IMG/VR virus record: IMGVR_UViG_3300006480_000028
Coordinates: 1-21,602 of that record
Length of the DNA stretch: 21,602 nucleotides
Source of the DNA: a virus
Reading direction: 5' to 3' (one strand)
Shown here: in pieces, positions 17,448-21,489 of the stretch
Position numbering within the stretch: position 1 is the first letter of the stretch
Layout of the letters: every line of letters starts with the position of its first letter
Program-made: the position numbers and the translations under genes
Notes under the pieces: model-generated
Databases searched by the model: none
Told to the model about the DNA's origin: nothing
Seen by the model: the letters and a program-made list of their open reading frames with translations, nothing else

Positions 17448-18125
17448 TTGCCTTATCTTCAAAGTAACATTACGCACTTTAAATGCTGGGTGCGTAGAGA
17501 GTACACGCATAACCACGCAAAATACCACGGTGAGTTTTTACACGCAATGGCTATTGCAGTAACAACGATGCCAAGTCGTTGTTTAAGTTTTCAAGTATTA
17601 TTTACAGGTTTCGAGGTAGATGATACTGATGAACCTAATGTCCACGGTGGCGCAATGTGGGCAAGAATGCCAATTACAGCGTTAGTTGGCGATACACCTT
17701 TTGATAAATGGCCTGAGCCTATGCCTGTTCATTTTGCTCAACCTTGGGATTGTATGTCTCACACACATGCTGTTTATCGTCTAGATCGTGCGCATCCATG
17801 TCCTTGGCTTGCTAAAATAGACGGTCAGTTTTTTCCTGCAAAATATTATTTTACAGTCGATTATACTGAAAGCGAGGTAGCAGACGATCCTGCTCAGCAT
17901 AAACAAAGTCATGTTTTAGAGCTTTTAGATGCAGGAAAATGGACAGGAAATATTGTAGCATTACCAAATAATAGAGTGCGTGTTACACATCCTGCTTGGT
18001 TTGCAACGGGAGAAGGTCCACCAGATTTTCGTCCATCACAGCATATACACTATTCAAAATCAGATTTAGACTATACAATGGACGTGAATCAGATCTTCGA
18101 CAATTTATATGCGAAGGATGAATAA
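17448..18125 (+). CDS. Conserved His-rich marine phage protein of unknown function
   Basis: A 225-residue protein strikingly rich in His (about 15) and Trp (7). Recognisable blocks are MPYLQSNITHFKCWVR, YHGEFLHAMAIAV, HGGAMWARMPI, AQPWDC, HTHAVYRLDRA, DPAQHKQSH and HIHYSKSDLDYT. I recall the same blocks from environmental marine phage genomes, always near connector genes, with no assigned function. The start is TTG at 17448, two bases after the previous stop; the N-terminal block is conserved in the relatives I recall, which supports that start over internal ATGs. The ribosome site is weak. The end overlaps the next start (TAATG). A structural or metal-binding role is possible. Confidence 0.65.
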   Translation: MPYLQSNITHFKCWVRREYTHNHAKYHGEFLHAMAIAVTTMPSRCLSFQVLFTGFEVDDTDEPNVHGGAMWARMPITALVGDTPFDKWPEPMPVHFAQPWDCMSHTHAVYRLDRAHPCPWLAKIDGQFFPAKYYFTVDYTESEVADDPAQHKQSHVLELLDAGKWTGNIVALPNNRVRVTHPAWFATGEGPPDFRPSQHIHYSKSDLDYTMDVNQIFDNLYAKDE

Positions 18126-18781
18126 TGGCTGTATCAGGTTCTAAAAACTTTAATATTGACGTTTCTGACGCCATAGAAGAAGCCTATGAGCGTTGTGGTG
18201 TAGAAGTTCGTACAGGTTATTCTTTAAGGACAGCTAGGCGTTCTTTAAATTTAATGTTAGCAGAATGGGCTAATAGAGGAGTTAACCTATTTAGTTTAGA
18301 ACAAGTAACTACGACGCTAACACAAGGTACGTCTAACTACACATTAGGTATAGAAACTGTTGATATTTTAGAGATGGTTTTACGTCGGAATAATACTGAT
18401 GTAACAATGACAAGAATGTCAAGAGCAGATTATCTTCATTTACCTAATAAAACAACTCAAGGTAGACCTTCTCAATTTTTCGTTGATCGTCAAGTAAACC
18501 CTGTCTTGTATTTATGGGCAACGCCAGAAAACTCAACAGATCAAATTATTTATTATCGTCTCGTACGAATAGACGACGCAGATGATTATAATAATGATTT
18601 TGATGTTCCATTTAGATTTTATCCATGTTTAGTTTCTGGATTAGCTTATTATTTAAGCATGAAAGTTTCTCCTGATCGTGTTAATCTTTTAAAAGGGGTG
18701 TATGACGAAGAATTTGCGAGAGCAGCAACAGAAGATAGAGATCGCACTAATTTACGTTTAGTTCCTAGGATTATTGCATAA
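18125..18781 (+). CDS. Tail tubular / P22 gp4-like connector protein
   Basis: A 218-residue protein with the pattern of head-completion adaptors that sit under the portal. The N-terminal helices are DAIEEAYERCGVE and RTARRSLNLMLAEWANRGVNLFSLE, then short strands (GTSNYTL, VDILEMVLRR), SRADYLHLPNKTTQGRPSQFF, YLWATPEN and a C-terminal helix pair AYYLSMKVSPDRVNLLKGVYDEEFARAATEDRDR. This matches gp4-like/tail-tubular-A-like proteins of short-tailed phages. It probably binds the portal ring and extends the channel. Ribosome site AAGGA upstream; the start overlaps the previous stop. Confidence 0.75.
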   Translation: MAVSGSKNFNIDVSDAIEEAYERCGVEVRTGYSLRTARRSLNLMLAEWANRGVNLFSLEQVTTTLTQGTSNYTLGIETVDILEMVLRRNNTDVTMTRMSRADYLHLPNKTTQGRPSQFFVDRQVNPVLYLWATPENSTDQIIYYRLVRIDDADDYNNDFDVPFRFYPCLVSGLAYYLSMKVSPDRVNLLKGVYDEEFARAATEDRDRTNLRLVPRIIA

Positions 18782-19353
18782 TGGCATATACTTCTGGAAA
18801 ACATGCAAAGTTTATTTCTGATCGTAGTGGGGTTGCATATCCTTATTCTGAAAGAATAAAAGAATGGAACGGTGCTATTGTTCATATTTCAGAATATGAA
18901 GCAAAACACCCACAATTAGAACCAAGTGTTGTAGGGGACGACCCTCAAGCATTAAAAGAAGCTAGACCAGACCGTACAGAGCCTGCGGTTATTCGTTTAT
19001 TAAGACCTAACTGTTTTAAAACGGGTACAGCAGGATCACCAGTTTTAACTGTTACTGAGCCGTCACACAATAGGACTACGGGTGATGTGGTTCGGTTTAG
19101 AAAAGTTACAAGTTTTGATGGTTTTACAAAAGTAAATATTGAGCGTTCTTCAGGTTATGCTATTACCGTTATTGATGAAAACTCATATACAATTACTATT
19201 GCTGGAGATACAGCAACAGTAGGAGGCGTCCAAGGTGGCGGTAAAAATGCAACTGTTGGTATAGGGTCGGGAGTTTTACCTTCACCAGCGACAACGTTTG
19301 ACTCATCAAATATCAAACTAGATTCGACAACTAAGACTTTTGACGAGGGCTAA
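18781..19353 (+). CDS. Virion protein related to zinc-ribbon phage proteins, cysteines absent
   Basis: A 190-residue protein. The first 65 residues, HAKFISDRSGVAYPYSERIKEWNGAIVHISEYEAKHPQLEP, follow the layout of a family that carries a CxxC...CxxC zinc ribbon (CDRCGF...C..C.E.KHPQL). Here the four Cys positions are Ser, Ser, His and Glu, so a classical zinc site is unlikely. The second half (residues about 75-175) is a beta-rich domain (VLTVTEPSHNRTTGDVVRF, VIDENSYTITIAG) such as those that assemble onto tail surfaces. It begins in the stop of the connector gene. It probably belongs to the connector/tail complex. Confidence 0.65.
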   Translation: MAYTSGKHAKFISDRSGVAYPYSERIKEWNGAIVHISEYEAKHPQLEPSVVGDDPQALKEARPDRTEPAVIRLLRPNCFKTGTAGSPVLTVTEPSHNRTTGDVVRFRKVTSFDGFTKVNIERSSGYAITVIDENSYTITIAGDTATVGGVQGGGKNATVGIGSGVLPSPATTFDSSNIKLDSTTKTFDEG

Positions 19354-20004
19354 ATGGCAAAACAAACAGTAGGAATTGGCTCTGCTGCAAATGATGGAAC
19401 GGGTGATACTCTTCGTATTGGAGCAGATAAGATAAATGACAACTTCAACGAAATCTATAATGCGTTGGGGAACGGTACAGCTTTAACTGATATTATCGAC
19501 ACAAACGGTCTTATTAATGTTAACTCTGGCTCAAACATTATTGTTTTTTACTATGCTGCTTTAACTGATTTGCCTAGTGCATCGGCTTATCATGGTGCGA
19601 TTGCTCATGTTCATGCAAATGGTGGAATGTATTTTGCTCACGGTGGTAATTGGATAAGACTTAATGATGAAGTCAGTGGTCCTACAACTAAATATACAAC
19701 AACAGCGGCTAATGGGTCTGCCTATACCTTTTCTGGTCCTGGTGCTACTGCTGGTAATAATCCTAACTTTACCTTTTATAAGGGTCACACATATTTAATT
19801 GATAATTCTACTTATGTTGGAAGTCATCCTTTGCAGATACGAACATCTGATGGCGGCTCTGCTTTTACAACAGGAGTTACTGAAAATTTTAATAGCACTG
19901 CAGGGTTAACTCAGTTTATTGTGCCACATGAACCTAGTGATACATCATTAGTGTATCAATGCACTAACCACAGTAGCATGGTCGGAAATATAACAATAGT
20001 ATAG
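19354..20004 (+). CDS. Tail fibre-like protein with cupredoxin-like C-terminal domain
   Basis: A 216-residue protein. Residues 1-40 are the N-terminal block common to phage fibre-type proteins (GSAANDGTGDTLRIG, then KINDNFNEIYNALG). Residues about 62-105 form a small beta unit. The C-terminal third, from NPNFTFYKGHTYLID on, looks like a cupredoxin: His158 in SHPLQ and Cys203, His206 and Met209 in YQCTNHSSMVG. These are the four ligands of a type 1 copper site, with the Cys-x2-His-x2-Met spacing seen in amicyanin. It could bind copper or use the fold as an adhesin. The start follows the previous stop directly, with GAGG overlapping the stop. A virion surface role is likely; copper binding is inferred. 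Confidence 0.7.
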   Translation: MAKQTVGIGSAANDGTGDTLRIGADKINDNFNEIYNALGNGTALTDIIDTNGLINVNSGSNIIVFYYAALTDLPSASAYHGAIAHVHANGGMYFAHGGNWIRLNDEVSGPTTKYTTTAANGSAYTFSGPGATAGNNPNFTFYKGHTYLIDNSTYVGSHPLQIRTSDGGSAFTTGVTENFNSTAGLTQFIVPHEPSDTSLVYQCTNHSSMVGNITIV

Positions 20005-20668: not shown

Positions 20669-21109
20669 ATGGCAACGAGTAATGCAGCAACCACATATCT
20701 TGAGCATCGACTGCTCAATTTTATTTTTAAAAACAACGCAGCTATTGGTGGTGTGACTTTTGCTTCACCAGGAGACAGCATTTATGTTGGTCTTGCAACG
20801 GCAGTTTCTGACGCAGAAGCTGGCTCTTTAACTGAAGCTAATTTTGGCAGTTATGCAAGAGTTCAAATTACTGCGGCAAACTGGACTTTAGCAAGCTCTA
20901 GCACAGATCAACAGACGATAAAAAATACTAATAACTTTGAGTTTCCAGCATCAACTAGTGGTTCCAATGTTGTGACACACGCATTTATTGCAGATGCAGC
21001 GAGTAGTGGAAATATATTGTTTATTGGTGCGTTAGATGCTTCAAAAACAATTGCTACAGGTGATGTTTTCCGTATTAACTCAAACAACTTGACTATTGAA
21101 TTGAAGTAA
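20669..21109 (+). CDS. Tail fibre-type (gp80-like) protein
   Basis: A 146-residue beta-rich protein with the pattern of small phage tail fibre/structural proteins: TTYLEHRLLNFIF, then DSIYVGLATAVSD, GSYARVQITAANWT, a Thr/Asn-rich stretch, VVTHAFIADAASSGNILFIGALD, then GDVFRINSNNLTIELK. The sequence lifestyle - helix, L-x-T strand, G-Y-A-R block and D-x-x-x-G-N block - is that of the family. AGGAG lies upstream as a good ribosome site. The end overlaps the next start (TAATG). It is probably part of the distal tail or a baseplate-like hub. Confidence 0.65.
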   Translation: MATSNAATTYLEHRLLNFIFKNNAAIGGVTFASPGDSIYVGLATAVSDAEAGSLTEANFGSYARVQITAANWTLASSSTDQQTIKNTNNFEFPASTSGSNVVTHAFIADAASSGNILFIGALDASKTIATGDVFRINSNNLTIELK

Positions 21110-21489
21110 TGGCTCTTGTTCTGAAAGACCGAATAAAAGAAACCACGACTACCACTGGCACAGGCACTTATACGCTTGCTGGTGCAGTAGGTGGTTTTGA
21201 AGCTTTCAGTCAAATAGGTAATTCAAACACCACATACTATTGCTGCACAGACGGAACTGACTTTGAGATAGGTATCGGCACCTACACTGCATCTGGTACA
21301 ACCTTGGCCCGTACCACAATATTGCAGTCTAGCAACTCCGATGCCGCTGTTAACTGGACATCAGGCACTCGCACTGTTTTCTGCACGTTGCCAGCAGAGA
21401 AGATGATATTTAACAATGCGAGTAATGTAGCGCAGAACTTTACAGAACAAGACCCGAATGCGTTGGCATTCGCAATAGCATTGGGATAG
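21109..21489 (+). CDS. Small tail or fibre structural protein
   Basis: A 126-residue protein with a pattern that recurs in phage tail fibre operons: LKDRIKETTTTTGTGTYTLAGAVGGFEAF, then YYCCTDGTDFEIGIGTYT, TLARTTILQSSNSDAAVNW and TRTVFCTLPAEKM. These are successive beta strands around conserved DRI, TGTG and G-TY-LARTT motifs. It starts in the stop of the previous gene. Two adjacent Cys (YCC) and a later Cys are present. It is likely a fibre or capsid-associated surface protein; the exact place in the virion is unknown. Confidence 0.65.
   Translation: MALVLKDRIKETTTTTGTGTYTLAGAVGGFEAFSQIGNSNTTYYCCTDGTDFEIGIGTYTASGTTLARTTILQSSNSDAAVNWTSGTRTVFCTLPAEKMIFNNASNVAQNFTEQDPNALAFAIALG

Follow-up and report, generated by a model that had tools for sequence, protein, structure and literature searches.

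The 216-aa protein encoded at positions 19354-20004 of the analyzed window was found to end in a domain (aa 108-216) that almost certainly has the cupredoxin fold. With its complete predicted type 1 site, this domain is, on balance, best read as a true cupredoxin that is displayed on the virion surface by a gp9/gp10-like tail protein and may be used in host contact.

The window, that is, the whole stretch of DNA analyzed, is a 21.6 kb viral contig with genes for the portal, the major capsid protein, an SU10-type adaptor, and a gp80-type fibre. For its capsid and portal proteins, the nearest described phages are the Pelagibacter phages HTVC023P, HTVC027P, and their kin (73% and 69% for the major capsid protein), and the host of the window phage is likely, judging from sequence, to be SAR11-type or related. 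Among the other genes, the protein encoded at 17448-18125 matched phrog_3704, annotated as a ferredoxin (E 4e-27), and matched no Pfam family; the ferredoxin annotation looks doubtful. The features of the 216-aa protein are as follows.

19354..20004, + strand: ORF of 216 aa, a tail or baseplate attachment protein with a gp9/gp10-like N-terminus, an HxH module, and a C-terminal cupredoxin domain
19360..19488, + strand: T4 gp9/gp10-like N-terminal segment (aa 3-45; PF07880), by which gp9/gp10 are anchored in the baseplate of T4
19540..19668, + strand: module with invariant His80, His85-x-His87, and His96 (aa ~63-105), common to cyanophage tail fibres and gp9/gp10-like proteins
about 19675..20001, + strand: cupredoxin domain (aa 108-216), from profile homology, the AlphaFold model, and structure matches
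19825..19827 (CAT), + strand: His158, first predicted copper ligand, followed by the invariant Pro159, from alignment to known ligands and invariance
19960..19962 (TGC), + strand: Cys203, which ends the second-last strand and is predicted to bind copper as a thiolate, from alignment and the model
19969..19971 (CAC), + strand: His206, predicted copper ligand, from alignment and invariance
19978..19980 (ATG), + strand: Met209, predicted axial copper ligand, from alignment and invariance

Fold and predicted copper site of the C-terminal domain

A profile built from 55 related domains (A1) was searched against all solved structures in the PDB, where it matched nitrite reductase (E 1.1e-4), plastocyanin (5.6e-4), and amicyanin (8.6e-4). 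Auracyanin, azurins, and pseudoazurin were also returned, and the matches were almost only cupredoxins until an E-value of about 0.5-0.6. Among the 55 profile members, weak matches were found in 28 for the NCBIfam amicyanin model (TIGR02657; E up to 1, best 3.1e-7) and in 21 for Pfam Copper-bind (best 1.3e-4). Single-sequence searches with the window's own domain returned no match in PDB, Pfam, or NCBIfam, TIGR02657 included, and recognition therefore depends on the family profile. When the domain was aligned by hhalign with four phage plastocyanins, an E-value of 1.1e-4 and a probability of 57% were obtained.

The AlphaFold model of the domain had a pLDDT of 89.4 and a pTM of 0.83, with an outer loop of lower confidence. 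Its best structural match was the first (type 1 copper) domain of Hyphomicrobium nitrite reductase (2dv6; Z 10.6, 2.3 A, 94 residues), rusticyanin matched at Z 9.5, and the best matches were all cupredoxins (Z 10.6 to 8.7). The cupredoxin-like fold proposed by the first-pass annotation was thus borne out by profile homology to type 1 copper proteins and by the predicted structure. The interval proposed for it, 19759-20004, was correct in its C-terminal position but started too late, because both the homology and the first two strands of the model begin at about aa 108 (19675). Separately, 'beta-sandwich proteins' of Pithovirus and Marseillevirus, known as predicted structures, resemble the domain (19672-20001) in fold (Foldseek E 6e-5).

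The four residues first singled out as ligands (His158, Cys203, His206, and Met209, with Cys-x2-His-x2-Met spacing) are present exactly as claimed, and in the profile-PDB alignments each of them falls on its counterpart among the copper ligands of plastocyanin and amicyanin. Their strand context, also part of the original claim, agrees with the plastocyanin arrangement: in the domain model, Cys203 closes the second-last strand, Met209 stands immediately before the last, and His158 lies just ahead of a strand. For the spatial closeness of the four side chains, which had been named beforehand as a test, the evidence comes from this alignment to solved folds and from the strand positions. The domain shares its Greek-key beta-sandwich, its His-Cys-His-Met order, and this strand context with type 1 cupredoxins such as amicyanin, plastocyanin, and the N-terminal domain of the Hyphomicrobium nitrite reductase, and its Cys-x2-His-x2-Met loop is the same as that of amicyanin. 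It differs from them in the lack of a signal peptide, in the fusion to a phage tail anchor, and in the Pro after the first ligand His.

Conservation of the four ligands in relatives had been set beforehand as a test, and His-Cys-His-Met was carried by all 24 homologues under 70% identity. In a second subfamily, which is more distant (S-TIM66 type), 26 of 27 sequences under 80% identity carried it as well; in the one that did not (HGNAMG), the Met seems to have been shifted in the alignment. Only one of the six search patterns included any ligand residue, and the homologue set was therefore not selected for ligands. Among 25 homologues under 75% identity, eight of 105 columns were invariant (P, G, H158, P159, Y201, C203, H206, and M209), so that the ligands form the most conserved part of a domain whose outer loops vary; the chance of all four falling among the eight is about 1.5e-5. 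A chance constellation of four residues is ruled out by homology, fold, and invariance.

The domain is estimated as quite likely to bind copper in the virion. A relic that kept the fold, binds no metal in life, and retains the residues for other reasons is very improbable: the weakness of the individual family scores would fit it, but the ligand invariance reaches under 35% identity and spans two subfamilies. Moreover, among 81 close relatives the codons of the ligand His and Cys differ freely at synonymous sites (CAT/CAC and TGC/TGT) with the ligand residues constant, and adjacent loop residues change.

The residue after the first ligand His is usually Asn or Ser in cupredoxins, and the Asn usually offers a backbone NH to the copper thiolate. 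The invariant Pro159 removes this NH at the predicted thiolate and could alter the redox potential of the site. The His158-Pro159 pair resembles the HPF found at the T1 sites of multicopper oxidases.

Tail anchor, HxH module, and virion location

The N-terminal segment matched PF07880 over the cut-off (35.5 bits vs 25), although the match covers only 45 of the 175 profile positions. Over the same ~40 residues, the protein resembles T4 gp9 and gp10 and matched their structures in the PDB (gp10, 2fl8, E 2.4e-6; gp9, E 0.0023); for the cupredoxin domain, no match to T4 proteins was found. The 216-aa protein also matched phrog_677, the cyanophage baseplate wedge tail fibre connector gp9 (E 6.7e-48), with aa 107-216 falling on the C-terminal part of that family. 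The gp9/gp10-like N-terminus indicates that the protein is a tail or baseplate attachment protein, and the earlier placement of the ligand set at the end of a tail-type protein accordingly holds.

The same N-terminal anchor, C-terminal domain, and four ligands were found in the phrog_677 gp9 connector and the gp10-like baseplate proteins of S-WAM1, P-TIM40, and S-SZBM1, and the S-SZBM1-type baseplate protein shares the HxH module as well. These proteins are longer than the window protein (about 400-500 aa vs 216) and belong to T4-like cyanophages, in contrast to the HTVC023P-related window phage. SSZBM1_206 of Synechococcus phage S-SZBM1 (498 aa) combines the gp9/10 N-terminus, the HxH module, and a cupredoxin domain with all four ligands (HPFEIR...YQCTIHSGM), and nine of its peptides were detected when particles purified on CsCl were analyzed by LC-MS (PMC9146016). 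Hence, at least one protein of the gp9/10, HxH, and cupredoxin architecture is a virion protein.

The HxH module, with the pattern HG-x3-HVH ... AHGG, adjoins the cupredoxin domain and was matched in 32 phage records, nearly all of cyanophages. The full-length AlphaFold model was weak over the N-terminal half, this module included (mean pLDDT 70).

Distribution of the domain among virion proteins

The cupredoxin module is common in marine phages and not peculiar to the window phage. With the window's own domain as the query, the viral contig collection yielded 561 matching stretches; 324 phage records also matched, all of which were marine cyanophages except for three labelled merely as marine viruses. 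In the related isolates HTVC023P and HTVC027P, the domain was not found at the sensitivity used, and it is therefore dispensable in this lineage. When genomes were scanned with a hand-made consensus, no relatives emerged; with a real sequence from the second subfamily as the query, 25 loci were returned, in which phage-like contigs were mixed with bacterial genes.

Cupredoxin domains also occur on homologues of three other window genes, and all of them retain the ligands; the module is thus borne by at least three further kinds of virion protein.

18125..18781, + strand: SU10 adaptor-like virion protein, whose homologue in phage 023Pt_psg01 carries a second-subfamily cupredoxin domain at its N-terminus
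18781..19353, + strand: neighbouring protein, whose homologue (L270) has a C-terminal cupredoxin domain
21109..21489, + strand: small protein, whose homologue (L289) has an inserted cupredoxin domain

The L289 and L270 contigs come from bacterial assemblies (a Flavobacterium SAG and a Porticoccaceae MAG) and have a tail gene cassette that resembles that of the window; both are probably phage. Additionally, some long fibre-like proteins contain tandem cupredoxin domains with retained ligands, and standalone cupredoxin proteins exist, one of which is annotated PetE. In very long Bacteroidetes proteins of over 2400 aa (L278, L279, and L285), the second-subfamily domain occurs together with the ligand motif. 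Two single-cell genomes of SAR86 encode 174-177 aa proteins that contain this domain and what looks like a lipoprotein signal (L283 2535-3068; L288 3838-4360), and in both genomes the gene adjoins one for a conserved signal-peptide-bearing protein.

Role of the predicted copper site

The presence of the module on varied virion proteins, with the ligands kept, is more in keeping with a surface module on display than with a single fixed enzyme. A copper-loaded surface module for host contact, or for the stiffening of a tail domain, is favoured over an electron-transfer enzyme, and host contact, which is suggested by location and modularity, may quite possibly be the main role. Under the favoured reading, the protein, which lacks a signal peptide, would be synthesized in the host cytoplasm and would take up copper there or, more likely, after lysis; the scarcity of copper in the cytoplasm is a point against this reading. 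The bound metal would join the His loop and the Cys-His-Met loop into a locked, rigid surface patch that serves host attachment or docking in metal-poor seawater.

The main rival, judged rather unlikely, is that copper serves as a purely structural clamp, replacing a hydrophobic core or a disulfide in a small exposed sandwich, with no part in host recognition or electron transfer. The small size of the beta-sandwich and the lower model confidence of its outer loop would suit a clamp, as would the strongest conservation falling on the ligands amid variable outer loops and the recurrence of the module at different positions on different virion proteins. However, many phage surface sandwiches, such as Ig-like and lectin-like domains, are stable without metal, and a complete His-Cys-His-Met set with an axial Met exceeds what a clamp needs.

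A second rival, which is improbable, would make the metal a lure or cargo, as proposed for iron on tail fibres in the Ferrojan or Trojan Horse hypothesis, where tail metal engages a metal-uptake receptor of the host; alternatively, the virions would act as seawater copper ligands. The invariant His-x-His module in the same protein is in keeping with it, as it resembles the HxH iron motif of T4 gp37 that has been discussed for marine phages (PMC11705849), and so are the exported lipoproteins with the same domain type that SAR86 bacteria encode. Against it, copper in a type 1 site is buried and would be poorly released, there is no known receptor, and the hypothesis is itself unproven. The window protein shares a conserved HxH and the idea of metal on a tail with the HxH iron-binding tail fibres (the T4 gp37 tip and Alteromonas phage R22Y). 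In these fibres, in contrast, iron is held between six His of a trimeric needle, whereas the predicted site of the window protein is mononuclear and of copper type, and lies within a folded domain, with Cys and Met among its ligands. A broader version of the favoured reading, in which many different tail proteins and virion surface proteins bear a mobile blue-copper module that is loaded with copper after lysis and forms, together with the HxH site, a dual-metal device for host docking in metal-poor seawater, is speculative and distinctly unlikely in full.

To our knowledge, type 1 copper sites have been described in electron-transfer proteins and oxidases but not in virus particles. Literature searches, which covered mainly open-access papers, returned no report of a cupredoxin in a virion or as a tail module. 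The cupredoxin superfamily is old; what had no description in the papers covered is a widely shared tail and virion module with an intact predicted copper site. Such a conserved site on the tails of phages that are abundant in the ocean (those of Prochlorococcus and Synechococcus and a SAR11-phage relative) would make virion copper directly testable. If the tails do bear copper, a role for it in phage-host contact would open up and virions would join the marine copper ligands; if the dual-metal reading is true, virions would be a sizeable pool of organically bound copper.

A redox role was also considered, whether as electron transfer, as a sensor of the host surface that switches between Cu(I) and Cu(II), or as a plastocyanin-like auxiliary metabolic protein, and is given little probability. 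It is in line with the full type 1 ligand set, the axial Met of which is typical of electron-transfer cupredoxins, and with the PetE annotation of one standalone copy. On the other hand, the residues that flank the exposed His206 are variable and polar instead of forming a conserved hydrophobic docking patch, and no conserved redox partner gene was seen adjoining; both argue against simple electron transfer. The lack of a signal peptide and the tail-type N-terminus count against a stand-in for plastocyanin, as does the finding that four of the six cyanophages checked that carry the tail domain have a separate petE with a signal peptide.

The plastocyanin-like auxiliary metabolic gene in particular is ruled out by the absent signal peptide, the C-x2-H-x2-M spacing in place of C-x2-H-x4-M, and the tail-type N-terminus; true phage petE genes have the signal peptide and the C-x2-H-x4-M spacing and are located elsewhere. 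Annotation calls for caution here, as some tail copies receive the name PetE or could end up in tallies of auxiliary metabolic genes. A published account of viral nirK concerns a metabolic gene and not a tail domain (PMC8115048). The copy of Synechococcus phage S-SCSM2R (L087 2797-3303), which is annotated PetE, adjoins large structural-type genes and has no signal peptide, and its label is probably a mis-annotation.
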